Origin: a bacterium
GTDB lineage: Bacteria; CLD3; SB21
DNA: 64,000 bases
Assembly: GCA_019695335.1 (NCBI GenBank)
Contig: JAIBAF010000004.1
Span: 1-64,000, forward strand
Direction: 5' to 3'
Below are positions 52,266 to 63,768 of the stretch, one piece after another; the first letter of the stretch is position 1; the number at the start of each line of letters is the position of its first letter. A program made the translations under genes and the position numbers. The notes under the pieces are model-generated. The model was not told where the DNA came from. It worked only from the letters and a program-made list of their open reading frames with translations, and did no database searches.

Positions 52266-52595
52266 ATGAATAAACAAAAACTTTCTGCATTAAGTTTGAT
52301 CTTCAGTGCTCTCCCGTTATTGTTGGCGGGCTACGATGCTGTGGTCAACGCCAACCCGTTCGGTTGGATTTATATAGGCGCAGGAATTATTTATATCGCC
52401 GTTTTTTTCAAAACGAAACATCACAAGCAAACATGGCTTGTATATTTCGGTAGCGCCGTCTTATTAGTAGTAGCCGCCGACATGTTTGCTCAAAATAAAA
52501 AGTATTTGCCCTATGCCTATATGGCAGCGGCTATTCTGAATATCCTCTTTTCGGTGATCCTGAAAAAACGTAGCGATTCAAGATCCAATCCATAA
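52266..52595 (+). CDS. Small four-helix membrane protein
   Basis: 109 residues made of about four hydrophobic segments (about 7-25, 32-50, 58-75, 85-103) with short polar loops. Unknown family. It lies 51 bp downstream of the ankyrin gene and 12 bp before the sensor kinase. No ribosome-binding site is evident. Confidence 0.6.
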   Translation: MNKQKLSALSLIFSALPLLLAGYDAVVNANPFGWIYIGAGIIYIAVFFKTKHHKQTWLVYFGSAVLLVVAADMFAQNKKYLPYAYMAAAILNILFSVILKKRSDSRSNP

Positions 52596-52607: not shown

Positions 52608-55463
52608 ATGAAAAAATTCATCGCATTCGTCGTATGGGTTTTGGTGAATGCCGGTATGAGTACTGCGCAAATCAAAATCCACCGAACGTTAAACATTGAA
52701 GACGGACTTCCACAGTCTCAGATTTTGAGTATGCTGGAAGATCATGACGGTTATATGTGGTTCGGAACTTTTGCCGGACTGGCGCGCTGGGATGGAACGT
52801 CATTTGCTAATTTCGACGGCCGGAACGGGCTCACTGGTTCCGTCATCTACGACATGATGGAAGACAGCACGGGACTTTATCTTGGTACGAGTGACGGTGT
52901 ATTTCTTTATCACAACGACGTCATGTCACCGTTCAAAAAAAAATTTTTTTCAGGAAAACATATTCGTAAAATTTTGCGAATAGGAAATGATGAATGGTTC
53001 TTCGCAACGGAAGGCAATGGTCTTTTTTATTGCAAAGATTCGGTTGTCGTAAATTGGACTGAAGCAAACGGACTCAACAGTGATATCGTCTATTCTTTAG
53101 CACTCTATAAACAGCAGATTATCATCGCAACAGCCGGCGGTCTGAATATTTTAGAAAATTCCATCCTGTCCAGTTTAAGCAAAGGACTGCCTTCGAAATT
53201 TACACGCCGATTATTTCGTTCAGGGAATGGTTATATCTATATCTGTACCGATAAGGGCCTGGCCATTTACAACGGCTCAATTTATACAGTGCTTACGGAC
53301 AATAGTGGTTTGTCTGGTAACGATGTTTGGGATGTGATTGAATCGCGTGACGGTAAACTGTATGTCGCAACATCGACCGGCGTTACCATTCTCGGAAAAG
53401 GCGACCCGGAAATCCTGACATCGTCGAATGGTTTGCAAGATGATTTCGTCAATTCACTTTTTGAAGATTCACATGGAACGATTTATATAGGCCACTATGT
53501 TGCCGGTGGCGTTAGTTTATATTCGCCGAAGCAAATGATGTTTTATAATAAAAAAACCGGATTGACGGAAAATGAGATCTGGAGTATCGGAGAAGATGAT
53601 AGAGGACATTTATGTTTGGGAACTTACGGGTCGGGCTTGTTACTCCTCGATAAAAACACAACAACATTGCAGAGTAAAACGAGCGCCGACGGACTAGCGA
53701 ATGATGCCGTGTGGTGCTTTGCCAAAAACTCACAAGGCAAACTTTTGATTGGTACGGATCAAGGCGTCAGTGCTTTAAGTAACGGCCGACTGTCTACTCT
53801 TAATTCAAGCAAATTGTTACCCAGAGTATTTGCCCTCCACACAGCCCGAAACGGCATTACTTACATCGGAACGAATCTGGGATTATATAAGATGGCATCC
53901 TTAGGAATTCCTGAAAAAATTCCGGAATTCGGCGATATGATTATTTCCAGTTTGACCGAAGATTCAGCCGGAACATTATATATTGGATGCGATGACCAGG
54001 GACTTCGGGCGATTCAAGGCGATCGCGTGATGCGATGGCTGGCGGCTGACGGGCTTACGTCAGAAAAAATCAACGGTCTTCATATTTTTAAAAAAAAACT
54101 TTTTATCGGCACGACGGGTGGTGGCCTGATTGTATTTAATCCTCAAGACACGCTCAAACCTTTTTTTGCCATGACCATGGAGCAAGGTTTATCCGATAAC
54201 ACCATCTTCACTATCGTTGAAGACCGGTCGAATCAATTGTATCTCACTTCCAATAAAGGTATAACTGTTCTGGATGTAAGCGGTGAACCGCGAGTAAAAA
54301 AGATCCTCACTCGTTTCGACGGATTACCCAGCGATGAATGTATTCACGGAGCCGCGTATGCCGATGCAGATGGAATTTTATGGTTTGGAACCACTCGTGG
54401 AGTTGCGCGTTACAATCCAAATGAAGATCAAATCAACACCATTCCGCCGCGAATCCATTTGACCCGTCTAAGAATTTTTGAAGATGATGTGGATTTAAAA
54501 AAACTTCCGGCAGGCCATGTTTTTAATTACAACGAAAATTATCTGAAATTTGATTTTATCGGCATTCATTTGGCTATGCCGGAGCGAGTCATGTATCGCT
54601 ATCGTATGTCGGAAGTGGATCCGGATTGGGTCGAAACACCGAGAAATTTTGTGCAATATTCTAATTTGCATGACGGTCATTATACGTTTGAAATTCAGGC
54701 GGCCAATGCCTGGGGCGTTTGGAGTGAGCCGTTGCAATTTACTTTTACGATTCGGCCTCCGTTCTGGAAAACATGGTGGTTTATCGCATTGATCATTTTC
54801 ACGGTGGGTGGAACGGCTGCGCTGATTGTATACAATCGCGTGCAACGCGTTCTTGCTATCGAACGCATGCGCTCAAAAATTGCTGCCGATTTTCATGATT
54901 CAATCGGCGCCGGGCTAACTCAAGTTCATATCCTCACGCAAATTGCGGCGCTGCAGCCGGATAAAAACGAATTGGTCGTAAAAAATCTGCAAACCATCGA
55001 CCATATTTCACAATCCTTATATGAAGAAATGCGCGATATTATCTGGATGATTAACCCGAAACGCGATTCGTTGTACGAGTTAATTATTCGCCTGAAAGAG
55101 TCCATTGAGGAAATTATTTTTCAAAATAACATCGAGTTTATTACTGGTAATCTTTCAGCATTGCAATCGGTAAAATTGCCGATGGAATTTCGCCGTCATC
55201 TGTACATGATTTTTAAAGAAGGTATCAACAATGCTCTTAAATATAGCGGTTGTAAGCGCATTACGCTGGAGGCAAACGTTAATGGAAAATCTTTCAGTAT
55301 GACATTAAAGGATGACGGCAAAGGCTTTGACTTATCCCACCAACGCCATGGCAACGGGTTAGTCAATATGCAGGAACGTGCCCGTGCTATCGGAGGATGT
55401 ATCGAAATTGAAACGGGAAATGAACAAGGGTGCACGATCCGATTTACAGGAAGAAGAATTTAG
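52608..55463 (+). CDS. Two-component sensor kinase with periplasmic propeller (Reg_prop/Y_Y_Y)
   Basis: 951 residues. Signal peptide (to about residue 21), then about 600 residues of 'two-component regulator propeller' repeats ('DHDGYMWFGTFAGLARWDG', 'EDSTGLYLGTSDGVF') and a Y_Y_Y domain (about 640-718). TM about 723-745, HisKA_3 with phospho-His763 in 'ADFHDSIGAGLTQ', then an HATPase domain with 'NNALKYSG' and 'DDGKGFD'. The most likely partner is the LuxR-type regulator at 56961, beyond the convergent symporter. Large periplasmic propellers of this kind often recognise oligosaccharides. Confidence 0.92.
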   Translation: MKKFIAFVVWVLVNAGMSTAQIKIHRTLNIEDGLPQSQILSMLEDHDGYMWFGTFAGLARWDGTSFANFDGRNGLTGSVIYDMMEDSTGLYLGTSDGVFLYHNDVMSPFKKKFFSGKHIRKILRIGNDEWFFATEGNGLFYCKDSVVVNWTEANGLNSDIVYSLALYKQQIIIATAGGLNILENSILSSLSKGLPSKFTRRLFRSGNGYIYICTDKGLAIYNGSIYTVLTDNSGLSGNDVWDVIESRDGKLYVATSTGVTILGKGDPEILTSSNGLQDDFVNSLFEDSHGTIYIGHYVAGGVSLYSPKQMMFYNKKTGLTENEIWSIGEDDRGHLCLGTYGSGLLLLDKNTTTLQSKTSADGLANDAVWCFAKNSQGKLLIGTDQGVSALSNGRLSTLNSSKLLPRVFALHTARNGITYIGTNLGLYKMASLGIPEKIPEFGDMIISSLTEDSAGTLYIGCDDQGLRAIQGDRVMRWLAADGLTSEKINGLHIFKKKLFIGTTGGGLIVFNPQDTLKPFFAMTMEQGLSDNTIFTIVEDRSNQLYLTSNKGITVLDVSGEPRVKKILTRFDGLPSDECIHGAAYADADGILWFGTTRGVARYNPNEDQINTIPPRIHLTRLRIFEDDVDLKKLPAGHVFNYNENYLKFDFIGIHLAMPERVMYRYRMSEVDPDWVETPRNFVQYSNLHDGHYTFEIQAANAWGVWSEPLQFTFTIRPPFWKTWWFIALIIFTVGGTAALIVYNRVQRVLAIERMRSKIAADFHDSIGAGLTQVHILTQIAALQPDKNELVVKNLQTIDHISQSLYEEMRDIIWMINPKRDSLYELIIRLKESIEEIIFQNNIEFITGNLSALQSVKLPMEFRRHLYMIFKEGINNALKYSGCKRITLEANVNGKSFSMTLKDDGKGFDLSHQRHGNGLVNMQERARAIGGCIEIETGNEQGCTIRFTGRRI

Positions 55464-56818
55464 GCAGGTTTTCCGTTTTCAAAAGAAGCGACGATGATGT
55501 ATCCTGCGAACGATACTGCTAATGCAAGCAGATAACTTAATTCGAATTCGTAACCGTAACTCGCCACCATCCACACAACAACTCCCAGTAACAACGCAGT
55601 GATGGCGCTTTTTTCTTTTCCGAACCGCGTAAATACTCCGAACATAGCGACGACAAAAATTCCGGCACTCCCAAGCGACGAAGCGTCTTTGACTAAATTA
55701 TAAACGCCTTCCGCGTGCAGAGCTAAAATGTAAGCCAGAATTCCCATACCTACCACGCCCAGGCGGTTATATAACAATTTTTGTTTTTCGGCGACACCGG
55801 GCTTCATTGATAAAAGAATGTTGTGAGAAAAAAGCGCCGAACAGGACAACAGGGCGCTGTCGACGGTCGACAAAATGGCCGAAACAATCGCGCCGGCAAA
55901 CAATACGTACATCCAAGACGGTAAATATTTTTGCGCAATCATCGGAAGCACATGTTCCGGTTCTTCCAAACCCGGAATCAAATAAAATCCGGCCAAGCCT
56001 AGTGTCAACGGAATAATGCCTACAACGAGATACATTCCCGCTGCCAATAGTGTTGAACGTTTTGCGATCTGCGGTGACCGGCAGGCAATCACGCGCGAGA
56101 TCAATTCCTGTGCAACGAGCGAACCACAGATCGGAATGGCCCATTCTTCCAGTGACGACCACCACGAGTGGACGGTTGCAGAATCGCGAAACACAAAAAG
56201 ATCAGGTATGGCCGTTACTGTGTCGGAGGTCATTACAATCGGTATCAATATGACTAACCCTGCAATCAGCGCTACACCTTGTACGACGTCCGTGATAGCA
56301 TCGGCCAAAAGTCCTCCCATCACGGTGTACACAATCACCACGGCGGCGGCCAATGTGATGGCCATGGTCGCTGTCAGTTCCGACGAAGCCGATAAAATCA
56401 TTCCCAGCGCGCGGATCTGCGCCGCGGCCCACAAAAGCGACGTCGGAATCATGATAATGGCCGTCAACCGTTCTGTGCGCTGCGAAAACCGAATCTTGAA
56501 AAGATCGGCGATCGTTGTCAATTTCATTTTCCACAAAGGTACAGCGAGGACCAACGCCATAACAATCAAACAAACAGCATATCCAAACGGATCGGCTGTC
56601 ACACCGGCTAAACCAAGTTCATACGCCGCGCCGGCCGTCCCGATGCATGACTCAGCACCAAACCATGTCGCGAAAATCGAAAAAATCGCCAGACCATAAC
56701 CAAGACTTCGCCCGGCAAGGAGATAATCCTCTTCGTTTCGAATTTTCTTCGAAACCAGAAAACCAATGATAAGTTGTACAACTATATAGACGAGTATTCC
56801 AGCAAGAGTTGAATTCAT
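55460..56818 (-). CDS. Sodium:solute symporter (SSS family)
   Basis: 452 residues, about 13 hydrophobic helices. The start 'LAGRSLGYGLAIFSIFATWFGAES' and mid-protein 'TVDSALLSCSALFSHN' are typical of the SSS family (Na+ with proline, pantothenate, sugar or acetate). The substrate is not evident. It overlaps the end of the sensor kinase by 4 bp (convergent) and is divergent from the response regulator gene; the shared 142-bp gap should hold both promoters. Confidence 0.93.
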   Translation of the reverse strand: MNSTLAGILVYIVVQLIIGFLVSKKIRNEEDYLLAGRSLGYGLAIFSIFATWFGAESCIGTAGAAYELGLAGVTADPFGYAVCLIVMALVLAVPLWKMKLTTIADLFKIRFSQRTERLTAIIMIPTSLLWAAAQIRALGMILSASSELTATMAITLAAAVVIVYTVMGGLLADAITDVVQGVALIAGLVILIPIVMTSDTVTAIPDLFVFRDSATVHSWWSSLEEWAIPICGSLVAQELISRVIACRSPQIAKRSTLLAAGMYLVVGIIPLTLGLAGFYLIPGLEEPEHVLPMIAQKYLPSWMYVLFAGAIVSAILSTVDSALLSCSALFSHNILLSMKPGVAEKQKLLYNRLGVVGMGILAYILALHAEGVYNLVKDASSLGSAGIFVVAMFGVFTRFGKEKSAITALLLGVVVWMVASYGYEFELSYLLALAVSFAGYIIVASFENGKPA

Positions 56819-56960
56819 GACAAAAGCAATCCGTTAAATGAGCTGAAAGGATACGAATTATAAAACGACGGAAGAACAATTGCAATAACTGCTTAATGAA
56901 AAAGCCGTTGAAACGGTAATGTTCTTTACGTATTATTCAAAACAACCAAATAATTACACA

Positions 56961-57599
56961 ATGATTAAAGTAGCCGTCGTCGAAGACGACAAAATTATCC
57001 GGCAAGGATTACATCTGATTTTAGATTCAACGGAAGGATTCAAATGCGTCGGCGCATATGAACGCTGCGAAGCTTTGTTGAAAGAATTGAACGTGCGCAA
57101 GCCGGAAATCGTTTTGATGGACATTCATTTAGCCGGCGGCATGTCCGGTATTGAAGGCGTAAAAAAAATCAAAGCAGTCACTCCAAATATTATTGTAATC
57201 ATGCAAACGGTGTATGAAGAATCTGAAACTATCTTTGATGCATTGTGCGCCGGCGCTTCAGGATATTTACTCAAGAAAACTTCTCCGGCCCGTATGCTTG
57301 AAGCGTTAAAAGAAGCACAGGAAGGCGGCGCGCCAATGTCTCCGTCTATCGCTAAAAAAGTAGTCGATCATTTTCAACGTCAATCCGTTCCCAGCAACAA
57401 TGAAGACGCTTCGTTAACCGAACGCGAAAAATCCATACTCAAACTGATGGAATCCGGCAAACCATATAAACTCATCGCCGACGAATTGTCCATCAGCGTT
57501 CCTACGGTGCGATTTCATGTCGGCAATATCTACAAGAAACTCCACGCAACCTCCCAATCTGAAGCCATCTCAAAAGCTGTCCGCAAAGGTTTGATCTGA
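56961..57599 (+). CDS. LuxR/NarL-type response regulator
   Basis: 212 residues from the ATG at 56961; upstream in-frame ATG at 56919 gives 14 extra residues not seen in the family. REC domain with phospho-Asp54 in 'VLMDIHL' and the LuxR-type HTH 'LTEREKSILKLMESGKPYKLIADELSISVPTVRFHV'. Its partner is most likely the propeller HisKA_3 kinase encoded before the symporter. Targets may include the symporter gene, transcribed divergently. Confidence 0.92.
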   Translation: MIKVAVVEDDKIIRQGLHLILDSTEGFKCVGAYERCEALLKELNVRKPEIVLMDIHLAGGMSGIEGVKKIKAVTPNIIVIMQTVYEESETIFDALCAGASGYLLKKTSPARMLEALKEAQEGGAPMSPSIAKKVVDHFQRQSVPSNNEDASLTEREKSILKLMESGKPYKLIADELSISVPTVRFHVGNIYKKLHATSQSEAISKAVRKGLI

Positions 57600-57624: not shown

Positions 57625-57660
57625 AAACCACCTATCACTTGTGATAGGTGGTTTTTTTGT
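57625..57660 (+). terminator. Strong rho-independent terminator after response regulator
   Basis: Arms AAACCACCTATCA and TGATAGGTGGTTT (57625-57654) with a CTTG-type loop, followed by TTTTTTT. It starts 26 bp after the regulator stop and cuts the unit off from the hypothetical-protein group. Confidence 0.93.
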
Positions 57661-57764: not shown

Positions 57765-58286
57765 ATGAAATTTACATTGGCATTCACACTTCAACTACTG
57801 TTGTCCGTCAGTTGTAATATCAAAGATGAGCCGCAGGCATTAGCTGATTACAAACCTGAAACGATCCGGACAGAAATTGCAATACAATCGGATCTTTCAT
57901 ATAACCGTTTCTCAGTAACTGAATTGTCTGTCACCGATTGCTACTTTATCAAAAATACAGACGCTAATTATTCGATTGCGATCATCAATTACGATCCTTC
58001 CATTGACGCACCTTACCGGCAAAAAATGCTGGCGGATGAAATAAAAGTTAATATCGACCTTTATTGTGCCGATGCGCCAATAGCGCGAGGAGTTTATTGG
58101 TGCTCAAAAAAATCAGCTAAGAGCCTCTCGGCAACGATTTATAACAGTCATGGTTCGATTGACCTTCACGACCATGAAAGCGGAAAAGTTGAAATCACTT
58201 ATTTCGACGGAAGAATTCTGCAAGGCCGGATCGATATTGACGACGGCATGACTTCTATTAAAGGAATTTTCTCAACACGATCATAA
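57765..58286 (+). CDS. Hypothetical lipoprotein
   Basis: 173 residues from the ATG at 57765; in-frame ATG at 57738 and 57750 are possible and none has a clear ribosome-binding site. Lipobox 'LLSVSC' near the N-terminus. The mature part is rich in beta strands with no known family ('SVTDCYFIKNTDANYSIAIINYD', 'YNSHGSIDLHDHESGKVEITYFDG'). Possibly a surface lipoprotein of a calycin- or beta-sandwich type. It lies 28 bp before the 657-residue unknown protein and may share its operon. Confidence 0.65.
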   Translation: MKFTLAFTLQLLLSVSCNIKDEPQALADYKPETIRTEIAIQSDLSYNRFSVTELSVTDCYFIKNTDANYSIAIINYDPSIDAPYRQKMLADEIKVNIDLYCADAPIARGVYWCSKKSAKSLSATIYNSHGSIDLHDHESGKVEITYFDGRILQGRIDIDDGMTSIKGIFSTRS

Positions 58287-58314
58287 TCACTTTAACTTAA
58301 ATGAAGGAGGAAGT

Positions 58315-60288
58315 ATGAAACGGAAGATTAATTTAGCGTGGCTGGTAATCATCACCTTAGCCGCATCCATGGCTGTCGGCAACAGCTATTCTCAGATCGA
58401 TTTAAAAAAACTGAAAGGCAAAGACAAATCCAAAAAGGAAACGAATGACAAACAGAAATCTGCATCACAGGATGGACGGGCTTCGAACAATGATTCCAAA
58501 AAATCCGGCGGTTCCAACAACGTTGCTTTAAATAATGCTGTCAAAGCGCTGCAAAATGATTTTATGGCGCTCGATGAATTGAGCCGTGCGCCTCAGTGGG
58601 ATGATTATAACTGGGATTACAAGGCTCAGAAATATTTAAAACAAATTCCGGATCGTATCGGTAAGGTTCGCGAACTCGAAGCCAATCATGCCGATCTGCC
58701 TAAGTACGAAGATTTGCAGAAACGTTTTCAGGCCTGGTATGATACGAAAGGCGGCAACGCAGCTAACGCCGATGCGGCTGGCTCAATGCTAGCTTATTAC
58801 AAAGGAAAAGCACAACTTTTGACTAATGCCCCTGCATCTATTGTTGCTGAATTTATGATCCCGCAATTGTCCGGAGATAACCTGCAACCGAGTGAAACCA
58901 TCAATATCCTTTCAGCGATGGATTACCCGTCAATGGCCGACCGTATGAAAACCGACAGGGAAAAATTTCCTAAATATTTTTATGCATTGAAAAATCGTTT
59001 ACAAAAACCCGCCAAAGGCCAGGAATTGAAAGATGGAAAAGAAATTGGTGTTACCACGAAAGACGATGAACAAATCAATTCGTCGATCAACAGCATTCTG
59101 TTGTGGCGTGATAAAATGGAAGCCGCCCAAGGTGAATTGGCAAAAGGCGTTTCCATCTGTATTGCCAAAGGCGACGAAGTCACCTATTCCAACGATGTAA
59201 AAATGGCGTACTATGAATCGGCCAGCTTGATGGCGCGTTCATTCAAATCGATGTTTCCCGATAATTCCGTTTTCGAAGACTTGACGCGCGAAGCCGATAA
59301 TGCTTTGGATCGTGTCATGACAAATTTCGCCCACCTTTTCACCAGTGATTTTCATAAAAAAAATATCAAAAAAATTATCGCATTTAAAAATCCTCAGGTC
59401 GTTGGAAAAGAAAACCCTGCAGACGTTATCACGGAAATTGTTCCGGGCCAGCCGTTTTATATGATCGCTTATTTTCGTCAAACAATTAAGGAATTAGGAG
59501 CGACCAAAAATGATCCGGACCTTGGCTACAGCGTCGCGACCTTACCCACGGCATTTTTTAAGGACGCAACCGATCAGTCTTCTTCCTCCAGCATTCGCCT
59601 GTACAACATTGGCGGAAAAGATCAGGAGATTATGAAGAAAGCGTATATCATATATGATTTGCTCCCCGATCCGGATCAAACAAATTATAAAAGCCATCTT
59701 CAATACCTGCCGGCTTTGCATTTCACCAAGTGGCTTCTGTCATTAACTCCCGGCCGTCATGATATTTTATTCGGCCTCGACGCCGACGGATACAATGATC
59801 GTTTTGCGGCTACAATTCAGTTTAGCATCAATTTAGACAGTAAAAGCAAGGAAGCGCTTAAAGCTTATTATGAAAAACTTTGGGCGAAAAAGCTGTCGGC
59901 AGTTGTTTTTCCGGATCAATATGGATCGACCGATCAACAAAATGAGATTCCTAACCGCGATGCGTTATCGAAATACGGCAAATTGCTCAAGCTTACCTGT
60001 AAACAAACCGGTCAGGTCATGAAGCCGTGGCCTAATGAAAATCAGGTTGATAATTATGTCGGTACGGGATTTGGCTTATTTGAAAGAACGGACGGCAAAT
60101 ATGAAATTATAGGTTTGTCTTTCTTACGCAAGCCTTCTGAAAGTCAATTCCGCTGGACCGCTTTAGGCGGAATACCCGATGATTACGCTTTGAATGCTTC
60201 CGGTTATCAGATCAAACCGGCATTGCTTAGTTTCGGCTATGAAATACCTAAAGAAAATATCGGTAAATCGGGTAATTGGAAGCAATAG
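58315..60288 (+). CDS. Large secreted protein of unknown function
   Basis: 657 residues with a signal peptide (to about residue 27) then a Lys/Asp/Ser-rich low-complexity stretch (about 30-70). The rest is mixed alpha/beta with no family I recognise; the C-terminal half contains 'LPALHFTKWLLSLTPGRHDILFGL' and 'FGLFERTDGKYEIIGLSFLRKP', suggestive of a beta-rich globular domain. A very strong AAGGAGGAAG ribosome-binding site precedes it. It may be highly expressed and exported. Confidence 0.8.
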   Translation: MKRKINLAWLVIITLAASMAVGNSYSQIDLKKLKGKDKSKKETNDKQKSASQDGRASNNDSKKSGGSNNVALNNAVKALQNDFMALDELSRAPQWDDYNWDYKAQKYLKQIPDRIGKVRELEANHADLPKYEDLQKRFQAWYDTKGGNAANADAAGSMLAYYKGKAQLLTNAPASIVAEFMIPQLSGDNLQPSETINILSAMDYPSMADRMKTDREKFPKYFYALKNRLQKPAKGQELKDGKEIGVTTKDDEQINSSINSILLWRDKMEAAQGELAKGVSICIAKGDEVTYSNDVKMAYYESASLMARSFKSMFPDNSVFEDLTREADNALDRVMTNFAHLFTSDFHKKNIKKIIAFKNPQVVGKENPADVITEIVPGQPFYMIAYFRQTIKELGATKNDPDLGYSVATLPTAFFKDATDQSSSSSIRLYNIGGKDQEIMKKAYIIYDLLPDPDQTNYKSHLQYLPALHFTKWLLSLTPGRHDILFGLDADGYNDRFAATIQFSINLDSKSKEALKAYYEKLWAKKLSAVVFPDQYGSTDQQNEIPNRDALSKYGKLLKLTCKQTGQVMKPWPNENQVDNYVGTGFGLFERTDGKYEIIGLSFLRKPSESQFRWTALGGIPDDYALNASGYQIKPALLSFGYEIPKENIGKSGNWKQ

Positions 60289-60302
60289 ATTCTTAATAAA
60301 CT

Positions 60303-60339
60303 GGTAAACCGGAAATGATGTTTCCGGTTTACCTTTCTA
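60303..60339 (+). terminator. Hairpin after the 657-residue secreted protein
   Basis: Perfect 13-bp arms GGTAAACCGGAAA and TTTCCGGTTTACC (60303-60333) with a 5-nt loop. The following tail TTTCTA is only partly T-rich, so a terminator is likely but a protein-binding or processing site is possible. Confidence 0.6.
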
Positions 60340-60359
60340 TTATTTTGATACTCAAATTT

Positions 60360-60455
60360 ATGAACGACCAAACAGATCAAATAAACTGGCGCATTTTAAT
60401 TTTCCTTTTGATCTCATTATTTTTACTGATTGTTGCGCATATCATTTTAAAGTGA
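60360..60455 (+). CDS. 31-residue single-span membrane peptide (candidate small gene)
   Basis: ATG at 60360, stop TGA ending at 60455. The peptide has a polar start ('MNDQTDQINWR'), one 18-residue hydrophobic helix, and a short 'ILK' end. No good ribosome-binding site is visible and it is too short for homology, but it fits between a terminator-like hairpin and the following gene with the right spacing (10 bp). Could be a leader or a small membrane component. Confidence 0.4.
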   Translation: MNDQTDQINWRILIFLLISLFLLIVAHIILK

Positions 60456-60465
60456 GACGATTCCT

Positions 60466-61140
60466 ATGGAACAACGCCATCGTGAATATACCGACTATTA
60501 CGAAGCACGAATGAATCGGTACTTGAACATCCCGATGTACCAAAATTCGTACGAAGCCGAAAAAGCTTTATTTCAGGCAATTAGTGAAGTAGAAAAATTG
60601 GAAGATTTTCGTGCAGTTTTAGAAAAAAACCAACTTAATATTCGCGTCGCGATTGCAAAAGTAAAAGACACTGAAAAAGCACGATTGGAATTTTACGATC
60701 AAATTCATGAAACGGTTCGTGCTAAAAGTTCAGAACGCATTTTACAGGCCATCGATAACATTCAATCGCCTGAAGAACTGACAAGGATGGTTTTGGATAT
60801 TGAAACGGAAAACAATCTTTTTATCACTGTCGATTTATTCGCCGATTGTTTTTATTCCGATTTTAAAATTTTAGAAGAAATCGAAGTTGCGGAATCGATT
60901 GTCGGCGACATCCCGCAAGAGTGGCGTCAGGAAGAATCGGACCGTGTTCATATGTTACGCAAGTCGGGCAGAACCGATTACGAACAACGGATTGTACCGG
61001 GTTATCGGCAATACCAACCGGATTGGAAAATAAATTATGCTTTGATCGGCGAAAAACGTCATCGCCGTAAAATTCCTTTCCCCGAAGAAGTAGTTCAAAA
61101 ACGAATCAAGCAGCATCAACGTTACACCGGTATGGAGTAA
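60466..61140 (+). CDS. Hypothetical soluble helical protein
   Basis: 224 residues, without signal peptide or membrane segment. Strongly charged with predicted helices in 1-150 ('YEARMNRYLNIPMY', 'AEKALFQAISEVEKLEDFRAVL'), followed by a basic C-terminus ('GEKRHRRKIPFPEEVVQKRIKQHQRY'). No family recognised. It is followed 3 bp later by the next unknown gene, so the two are co-transcribed. A weak ribosome-binding site only. Confidence 0.75.
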   Translation: MEQRHREYTDYYEARMNRYLNIPMYQNSYEAEKALFQAISEVEKLEDFRAVLEKNQLNIRVAIAKVKDTEKARLEFYDQIHETVRAKSSERILQAIDNIQSPEELTRMVLDIETENNLFITVDLFADCFYSDFKILEEIEVAESIVGDIPQEWRQEESDRVHMLRKSGRTDYEQRIVPGYRQYQPDWKINYALIGEKRHRRKIPFPEEVVQKRIKQHQRYTGME

Positions 61141-61143
61141 ATT

Positions 61144-62310
61144 ATGCCAATCAATCAAATGATTATCGATAGCATGCTTGGAACCTTCAGAACGATGGCT
61201 CAAGACTGTCGCGACAAAAAAATGTCGGGACCTTCCTTCGAGATGATGTTGGCCGAACTGGAAAAAATGGAATCACTCGGTCGTGAAATGGACGACTTGA
61301 ACGCCTATAGCGCAAAAATGGCAACGGAAGGTCATTTTGCAAATTTCAGTCAATATTATTCGCAATGCCTTTCTGAGGCCGCTAAACAATCGCTAACCAA
61401 TAATGACGATACGGATGATTTGTATTTAAAGCAGACGATTGATGCTTATGAAAAAACGCTGGTGTCGTATCATGATACACAGAATTCTTCGTTAAAACCT
61501 TCGGACGTTCGCTCGTTAAGCGGTGTTTTACAATCGATCATTGATCTAGGGCGATCGGGTATTTCGTATCCTGTATTCCTCCGCACGCTGATCGAAAAAG
61601 GTATGGACAAAGCCATGGAAGGTACCGTGATACTTCGCGATAACCTGGTCACCGAAGTGAATTGGGCAAAATCCAGAAATCATCCGGTCGAAATTCAAAT
61701 GCGTGAAGAAATTCTTTCAACTTTCGATGCGATGGCCAACACTTCGCCCTTCGGCATCCCGGATTCATTTGAATTCGGATTACGGAGGAACAAGATCGAA
61801 TGGGATTTTGCACCGCGGATTACAGAATGGAAAGCCATTCAGGAACGATGGGAAATTCTGATCGATTTAGTCAATGATTGGTTAGACGCTTTCACATCGT
61901 TTGCGTCTGCTGATGATCGGTGGGTATCCGCGGCCGGTATTTCAGTAACTCAAAAAAATATTCGGAGAACTCAAGAACTAGTGCCGTTTCGATTACGCGA
62001 GCGACTCAGAATCTTCAATGAATCGTTTGGTCTTGAATGGAATGATATTTTTGAACATATAACCTTCAAAACGGCGTGGACCAATGTCGATGTATTTTTG
62101 TCACAGGAAAAGCTTGAATTGATCAAACGCGCCGTGATCCAATGTTTACCCGGCGGACACCCTACAGATGATTTGGTCAAACAAGCCGAGTCGCTCCGTA
62201 AAACTCATCGGGATTTTCGCTTTGATGAGAAAAACGTAATGAGTAAAAAATTAAAAGAGGAATATAATAATTACTTCGGTAAAGGCGCTTACGAGAAAGA
62301 TTTCAGATAA
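61144..62310 (+). CDS. Hypothetical soluble protein
   Basis: 388 residues, no signal peptide or membrane segment. Almost wholly helical with many charged residues; 'DYGHLW'-type motifs or known catalytic patterns are absent. It follows the 224-residue protein by 3 bp and ends at a convergent small membrane gene. The pair has no named relatives that I recognise. A function cannot be suggested. Confidence 0.75.
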   Translation: MPINQMIIDSMLGTFRTMAQDCRDKKMSGPSFEMMLAELEKMESLGREMDDLNAYSAKMATEGHFANFSQYYSQCLSEAAKQSLTNNDDTDDLYLKQTIDAYEKTLVSYHDTQNSSLKPSDVRSLSGVLQSIIDLGRSGISYPVFLRTLIEKGMDKAMEGTVILRDNLVTEVNWAKSRNHPVEIQMREEILSTFDAMANTSPFGIPDSFEFGLRRNKIEWDFAPRITEWKAIQERWEILIDLVNDWLDAFTSFASADDRWVSAAGISVTQKNIRRTQELVPFRLRERLRIFNESFGLEWNDIFEHITFKTAWTNVDVFLSQEKLELIKRAVIQCLPGGHPTDDLVKQAESLRKTHRDFRFDEKNVMSKKLKEEYNNYFGKGAYEKDFR

Positions 62311-62314
62311 AAAC

Positions 62315-62527
62315 TCATTTATTCATTTTATGTAATACGGCGATCCATATTTGCGGAATATATCCGCCGATCAATATCAGGAAAAGACCAATGAGCGTCC
62401 ATTTTGTAAAAATGGAACCGGTAAACCTGTCTAACCCAACACTTAATACGCTCAAATACCATCCGATAACCATCATACCCAAGCCGATAACTTGAGGTAT
62501 AATTCGGCGTACTAATTTCTCTAACAT
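62315..62527 (-). CDS. Small two-helix membrane protein
   Basis: 70 residues with two hydrophobic helices (about 10-28 and 43-62) and short basic ends. No family recognised. An AGGAGG-like ribosome-binding site (minus strand, just upstream of the ATG at 62527) supports that it is real. It ends 4 bp from the end of the convergent 388-residue gene. Confidence 0.65.
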   Translation of the reverse strand: MLEKLVRRIIPQVIGLGMMVIGWYLSVLSVGLDRFTGSIFTKWTLIGLFLILIGGYIPQIWIAVLHKMNK

Positions 62528-62566: not shown

Positions 62567-62782
62567 TCAGAATGTTGCTTCAATAGAAATGTCCGGAAAA
62601 CGTTGTTGAACTTCTTTAGCCGGTTCTTTCGACATGCGCTGGGTTTCGTGAACCACTTCACCTTCACAACACCGGACCATAACATTTTTGCAATGTACGC
62701 ATTGATAATGCCCGTGTACAAAAACAAAACCGGCACTGGCGCGGCAGAATGGACAGATCGTTTGGGTCAAAGACGATTTCAT
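62567..62782 (-). CDS. Zinc-ribbon protein
   Basis: 71 residues with 'CPFCRASAGFVFVHGHYQCVHC', i.e. two C-x2-C knuckles about 17 residues apart, which should bind one zinc ion, plus one further Cys pair ('RCCEG'). Function unknown. The start codon overlaps the stop of the upstream alpha/beta-hydrolase gene (ATGA), indicating coupled translation. Confidence 0.8.
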   Translation of the reverse strand: MKSSLTQTICPFCRASAGFVFVHGHYQCVHCKNVMVRCCEGEVVHETQRMSKEPAKEVQQRFPDISIEATF

Positions 62783-63768
62783 GGTTTTAAATGTTGATCA
62801 AAGAACGCCGCCGTTCGCTGCATGACCAAAGGCCATGCATTAATAAATTCGTGCGGCTCTTTCGGATACTCGTAAAATGTAACATCTTTTTGTCGTATTT
62901 TCAACGAGTCTGTTAATTTTTGTGACCATTCGAGAGGACACGATTCATCGGATGTTCCGTGATGGATCATTATCGGCGCTTCTACGGCATTCAAGTACGT
63001 CATCGGCGATATACGATTCCAAAAATCCGGATTTTCCTCCGGACGGCCATACTGACGGATGATGCTGTCTCCTTCTGAGCTTCGAACCGACCATCGGTAG
63101 AAATTATCGCGAACGTCGGCGCTGACGGAGCCAAAGAGTACGAATGCCTTAACAAGTTTCGGCTGCGCTACCATAACGTTCAGGCATATACCGCCGCCCA
63201 TCGAATGGCCAAACATGCCGATACGTTCTTTATCAAAAAATTTGTAGTCAGAATTTTTAACGGCAACCACGGCATTGATCACATCTTCAACATACCCTAA
63301 TCGAAATCGTACACCGTTGGTCGTATCTTTGTCGGAATCGGCATGATTGCGGTAATCGGGATGTATGACGACGTAACCATGTTTGGCGAGATAATCCTGC
63401 TCGCGTTTAAGTCCGCGGCCGTTAGTATACATTTTAGGCGGGATATATCCATGGTTCAAAATTAAAACGGGGAAAGGGCCTTTTCCTTTCGGAACGTTCA
63501 TGATACCCGAAATTTTTAGATCCCCGCTGCGATAAGTAATATAATAACGCGTGTAAGACGGTTGATCGTCCAGGATTTTCCCTGTCTTAAGATCACCACC
63601 CGAAAATTCTTTTTTTGAAAAATATGGTAGAGAAACTGTATCAACCCATTTTTTTTCTTCAGCTATGGCGGAATGAAAATCGGTTTTTGGCGCTTCATCG
63701 TCCTTGACCCAATAGCCAAGAATCCCCAATCCTACAACAAATGCAAAGATCATTGCAGCTTTTTGCAT
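62779..63768 (-). CDS. Secreted prolyl-oligopeptidase-like (S9) alpha/beta-hydrolase
   Basis: 329 residues with a signal anchor or signal peptide (to about residue 20). Nucleophile elbow 'GMFGHSMGGGICL' (Ser near residue 190), Asp in 'HGTSDESCPLEWS', and His in 'YPKEPHEFINAW' make the catalytic triad. This is the peptidase S9/DLH-type family that cleaves esters or short peptides; substrate unknown. First gene of a short minus-strand unit with the zinc-ribbon gene. Confidence 0.88.
   Translation of the reverse strand: MQKAAMIFAFVVGLGILGYWVKDDEAPKTDFHSAIAEEKKWVDTVSLPYFSKKEFSGGDLKTGKILDDQPSYTRYYITYRSGDLKISGIMNVPKGKGPFPVLILNHGYIPPKMYTNGRGLKREQDYLAKHGYVVIHPDYRNHADSDKDTTNGVRFRLGYVEDVINAVVAVKNSDYKFFDKERIGMFGHSMGGGICLNVMVAQPKLVKAFVLFGSVSADVRDNFYRWSVRSSEGDSIIRQYGRPEENPDFWNRISPMTYLNAVEAPIMIHHGTSDESCPLEWSQKLTDSLKIRQKDVTFYEYPKEPHEFINAWPLVMQRTAAFFDQHLKP

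Follow-up and report, generated by a model that had tools for sequence, protein, structure and literature searches.

An undescribed two-gene module encoding predicted helical proteins within a run of five unrecognised genes

Do five consecutive genes without a recognised family make up one functional group, or does the conserved unit lie in only a part of them? The question arises in a 64,000-nucleotide stretch of bacterial DNA (the window; positions 1–64000 of contig C4 in genome G000, which spans 3.76 Mb in 130 contigs). There, a first-pass annotation had gathered five open reading frames (ORFs), lying between 57765 and 62310 on the plus strand, into one group and proposed them as a source of undescribed biology; all five are present as it described them. 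The place was well chosen, but what it holds is narrower than five genes and better founded: one undescribed two-gene module, made up of the last two genes, here called D and E. The three genes before them, A, B and C, lie outside this module.

D (60466–61140, plus strand), the first gene of the conserved pair, encodes a soluble, acidic protein of 224 residues (isoelectric point, pI, 5.5) that is predicted to be all-helical; E (61144–62310, plus strand), the second, encodes one of 388 residues (pI 5.3), likewise acidic, soluble and predicted to be almost all-helical. The two were rightly named as adjacent soluble helical proteins, E starting 3 bases past the stop of D. A peptide scan of a species-genome collection with E returned 15 matching stretches, four of them encoding relatives, in metagenome-assembled genomes (MAGs) named as Bacteroidota: Acetofilamentum (L004), Bacteroidetes (L005), Crocinitomicaceae (L006) and Bacteroidia (L007). 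A relative of D lies immediately upstream of E in each, the L005 copy being cut off where its contig starts. Profile searches with E, whose counts include the centre genomes and genomes already known, found it in 2 of 395 genomes sampled across Bacteroidota, in 3 of 148 relatives of genome G243 and in 14 of 299 relatives of MAG G062; among 386 relatives of G000, a sample reaching across the domain, the one carrier is G000 itself. E is thereby known from 20 distinct genomes: G000, the four named MAGs (G060–G063), G243, two relatives of G243 and twelve of G062. Besides G000, carriers are placed in Bacteroidota by name in four cases and through the phylum sample in that of G243; no phylum is claimed for the other fourteen relatives.

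D immediately precedes E, in the same orientation, at all 20 loci, as judged from profile-matched ORFs at 19 and from a D C-terminal fragment of ~100 residues at a contig end at L066. The gap between the genes ranges from −47 to +12 bases (19 loci), the value of −47 at L077 stemming from an upstream E start. Around the pair the neighbours change: leaving D and E aside, the most widespread BLASTP cluster of genes reaches no more than 8 of the 20 loci. Among 68 neighbours (proteins of at least 85 residues at positions −3, −2, +1 and +2 around E, at the 19 loci outside the window), 5 carry secretion sorting domains, which might hold the 8-locus cluster together. The Bacteroidota promoter motif TAnnTTTG occurs upstream of D at 2 of 18 loci against 1.6 expected, and so lends no support.

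Trees of the two proteins, built from 18 rows (L007, with a truncated E, and L066, with no complete D, were left out), contain eight well-supported branches for E and seven for D. Five groups are well supported in both: the window with L075, L076 and L077 (support 100/100 for E and 100/99 for D), L063 with L064, L067 with L068 and L069, L070 with L071 and L072, and, within the last, L070 with L071. Distances for D and E correlate with r = 0.86 (171 pairs, 19 loci). The ratio of non-synonymous to synonymous substitution rates (dN/dS) is measurable for L070/L071 only, two other pairs being saturated; there it is 0.045 for D and 0.072 for E (dS 1.9 and 1.6), and both genes are under strong purifying selection in this one measurable pair. 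Every D and E protein has a pI of 4.7–5.9 except one truncated E at 4.3, and the GC content of the genes departs by no more than about 0.05 from that of the locus around them. Mutual duplication of D and E was considered and rejected (hhalign probability 0.3%). In fixed order, adjacency, co-inheritance and acidic make-up, with no library family for either member, D–E is a co-inherited two-gene module. A gene pair retained at 20 of 20 loci amid changing neighbours, and with a dN/dS of 0.05–0.07 in the one comparison where it is measurable, must have a useful function.

How the module came to the lineage of the window is less clear. A 60-genome sample contains one genome of the same genus as G000, five of the same family and two of the same class, the remaining listed rows having only the domain in common with it. 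E was not found in G002–G008, of which G002 is 85% complete. The absence of D–E from the same-genus genome G001 was considered as a sign of recent gain and rejected: by DNA search, contig C106 of G001 stops at window position 52563 and C18 starts at 63065, so that the region coincides with a gap in that assembly and the lack of B, D and E there says little. Transfer across phyla or inheritance from very far back would each account for the pair in this lineage, and neither is favoured, because in that sample genomes outside the class of G000 have no more than the domain in common with it.

No family library accounts for these proteins. Searched against Pfam, NCBIfam, PADLOC and PHROGs, none of the five window proteins was matched at the 0.001 cut-off, the best scores being 0.0092 (B, PHROGs) and 0.011 (A, NCBIfam); D has no Pfam match at E ≤ 1. 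The earlier statement that none has a recognised family therefore holds for all five, profile searches having turned up no known family for any of them, and that of undescribed biology is borne out for D and E by each library searched. Several weak matches were taken as chance: DUF2357 in 2 of 18 E proteins (best 0.0014), Thioredoxin_6 and BLM_N in 1 of 18 D proteins each (0.0024 and 0.0029) and the NCBIfam matches of the 18 E proteins (best 0.026). Searches of PDB sequences with profiles A1 and A5 and with B gave nothing convincing; an IpaD profile match (E = 0.0033 over ~100 residues) and one to apolipoprotein A-IV (E = 0.052) were likewise ascribed to chance. In the literature, no title among the matches listed for broad search terms names such a pair, which is weak evidence that it is not in print.

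The AlphaFold model of D is composed of ten helices and nothing else (mean predicted local distance difference test, pLDDT, 80.3; predicted template modelling score, pTM, 0.66), and that of E is almost all helix, with fifteen (mean pLDDT 76.4, pTM 0.48). Foldseek found no match in the PDB at E ≤ 0.001 for either protein, nor among viral models for E, the one queried there; with helical models of medium confidence, such negatives do not show a new fold. The best fold matches (for E, a VIA Z of 7.6 and a root-mean-square deviation of 3.1 over 98 residues; for D, a Z of 6.5 and 3.5 over 89 residues) lie within the helical noise stated for the tool.

Mapping conservation onto the sequences identifies M1, M18, D51, S69, Y72, L76, D91, G160, P181, P206, W229, P281, S320 and P336 as invariant over 18 E proteins, and Y11, Y12, R15, E32, A38, F48, D68, E82, I120 and D123 over the 18 D proteins of profile A8. 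In a 20-row alignment, all 15 complete E proteins outside the subfamily of the window end in an AxxW tail, which reads NAxPW in 7 of the 15, and the same 15 have, past residue 110 or so, an insert whose length varies. The window protein and those of L075, L076 and L077 have neither tail nor insert; the E of L007 is truncated and uninformative for the tail. Two E genes are irregular. That of G063 lies in two pieces (L007 4671–5471 and L014 3–518), which sit at contig ends, of C21 and C12, and looks like an assembly break; the frame of G243 (L075 8753–9817) stops early, its profile similarity running on past one TAA.

We put at about 0.5 the probability that D and E are the paired subunits of a single soluble cytosolic complex that acts as a scaffold or adaptor. 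The two would be made from a bicistronic message, and inherited, and probably transferred, as a unit; their products may bind each other. Such a complex would be a scaffold or adaptor and not an enzyme, because most invariant positions seem to serve structure (M, P, G, W, Y and residues that pack helices) and no catalytic cluster is obvious; the AxxW tail of E may dock a further partner.

Several points weigh against this. The trees disagree in places, L004 with L005 being supported for E and unresolved for D, and the order within the window group differs. The high correlation of D and E distances is one that shared species history would also produce, and it has no control gene beside it. A search of 9 genomes with D gave a single match, beside E, and D may occur without E beyond these 9. 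As to the putative binding, 18–20 sequences are too few for contact coupling; the predicted structures rest on five sequences, and the pTM of E leaves its arrangement uncertain. The suggestion that the complex is not an enzyme comes from residue types, and D, E, R, S and Y are also among the invariant residues.

The main rival is that D–E is an uncatalogued two-gene conflict module, of anti-phage defence or toxin–antitoxin type, patchily kept and moved as a unit. It would suit the patchy distribution (the 14 of 299, 3 of 148 and 2 of 395 genomes given above) and the turnover of neighbours between loci, and 2 of the 68 neighbours contain a YhcG nuclease domain. PADLOC PDC-S02 models are matched by up to 3 of the 68 and a PD_DExK model by 2, among the 25 commonest of 48 PADLOC families, counts that have no background rate beside them. 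The neighbour families are nevertheless mostly ordinary among those listed (the 25 commonest of 82 in Pfam and of 48 in PADLOC), and PADLOC 2.0.0 models match none of the five window proteins even at E ≤ 1. Neither D nor E has a known nuclease, ATPase or membrane domain; E, which was queried where D was not, is without a match in viral contigs, plasmids and phages; and the GC content of the two genes, close to that of their loci, also counts against this reading. We regard a conflict module as unlikely.

Quite improbable, in our view, is a membrane-tethered complex of C, D and E in this lineage, with the peptide C anchoring or regulating D–E. C (60360–60455, plus strand) is a hydrophobic single-span ORF of 31 residues that ends 10 bases before D, 3′ of a terminator-like hairpin (60303–60333, plus strand) with a 14-pair stem followed by TTTCTATTAT. 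This hairpin parts B from C–D–E, in line with the earlier remark that terminators separate some of the genes, and the stretch 60289–60345 folds at −22 kcal/mol (z −6.98). A second hairpin lies at 57625–57654, 3′ of the response-regulator gene upstream; over the whole scan, terminators are no more frequent than chance would give (6, against a mean of 5.4 in shuffles), and an Rfam search gave no match anywhere in the window. An earlier in-frame ATG at 60315 would lengthen C to 46 residues, but is located within the hairpin. Of all ATG mini-ORFs of 20–70 residues in the six reading frames of the window, the one read from that ATG alone attains a mean hydropathy of 2.6 or more over 19 residues. 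Its hydropathy of 3.22 was reached by none of 1,000 shuffles of the interval (2.0 was reached by 6 of 1,000), numbers that are somewhat flattering given that C had been picked out after the fact. The ORF and its one span are as the first-pass annotation had them, and the position and hydropathy of C favour a complex with D and E. However, no such peptide precedes D at any of the 17 other loci with upstream sequence (just 136 bases at L067), those of the window's own subfamily, L075–L077, included, although C was not searched for genome-wide; nor was a Shine-Dalgarno motif seen by eye 5′ of C. Though outside the module, C may share the D–E message as a membrane peptide particular to this lineage. 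A more ambitious reading, in which D–E is an undescribed two-protein helical machine of Bacteroidota and the window lineage, with two new folds, one per partner, an AxxW docking tail on the E proteins of the larger branch and coupling to the 31-residue membrane peptide in this genome, is doubtful.

The two genes at the start of the run look like mere neighbours as well. A (57765–58286, plus strand) encodes a putative lipoprotein of 173 residues, whose N terminus, MKFTLAFTLQLLLSVSC, bears by eye what we take to be a lipobox, in agreement with its earlier label; a search of 145 genomes, G000 among them, yielded the window copy and no other. B (58315–60288, plus strand) encodes an exported protein of 657 residues with a signal-peptide-like start (by eye), and AAGGAGG shortly 5′ of its ATG makes the very strong ribosome-binding site ascribed to it a fair description. 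B is represented in 4 of 193 genomes, G000 among them: G003 has two relatives, and G875 and G957 have matches to its C-terminal half. None of four B relatives has a convincing Pfam family (best 0.018). The C-terminal half, a domain without a name or a convincing Pfam match, is common to exported-looking proteins of two distant genomes (L080 1462–2439 and L081 949–2304).

No relative of A or B was found around D–E at the 19 other loci, by BLASTP at 1e-5 over ORFs of at least 70 residues up to 8 places away, several loci ending at contig ends. B occurs in G003, which lacks both D and E. With no counterpart of C at the other loci either, five genes acting as one functional unit can be rejected: the proposed group stands for D–E, adjacent at every locus, and falls for A, B and C. 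The alternative, that the genes occur separately in relatives, is true of B, consistent with what is seen of A and C, and false for D–E. Among five proteins without a name, D–E offers a small, testable target of two soluble proteins.

Beyond the run, window positions 52608–57599 hold a Reg_prop/Y_Y_Y sensor kinase of 951 residues, a LuxR-type response regulator and a transporter that by eye resembles a sodium–solute symporter. On the minus strand downstream are a 70-residue protein with apparently two membrane spans (62315–62527) and a cysteine-rich, zinc-ribbon-like protein of 71 residues (62567–62782); Pfam gives no match above its cut-off for either. Response-regulator-type genes are found near D–E in the window, L063, L066 and L069, and sensor-type genes in the window, L006 and L069; they have no background rate and are not used as evidence.

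How does D–E compare with known systems? A distant, diverged XpaC–TelA (YaaN) pair is very improbable: xpaC (~200 residues) precedes yaaN (~390 residues), whose product is helical, so that D (224) followed by E (388) is alike in gene order, approximate sizes and a helical second protein, but the Pfam families listed at E ≤ 0.1, 7 for the 18 E proteins and 15 for the 18 D proteins, do not include TelA in the first case or XpaC in the second, and D shows no membrane helix, whereas XpaC has membrane helices. BAR domains, alpha-catenin and vinculin, and IpaD by the profile match set aside above, are helical bundles like the D and E models, and weak neighbours only. Bicistronic operons of partner proteins in general offer a further parallel. 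D–E differs from these in that neither protein has a convincing match in, or belongs to a family of, the libraries searched, but the bicistronic partner pair is itself a known arrangement, and D–E resembles it in its fixed order, its overlapping or nearly touching genes, its similar trees and its independence of neighbourhood.

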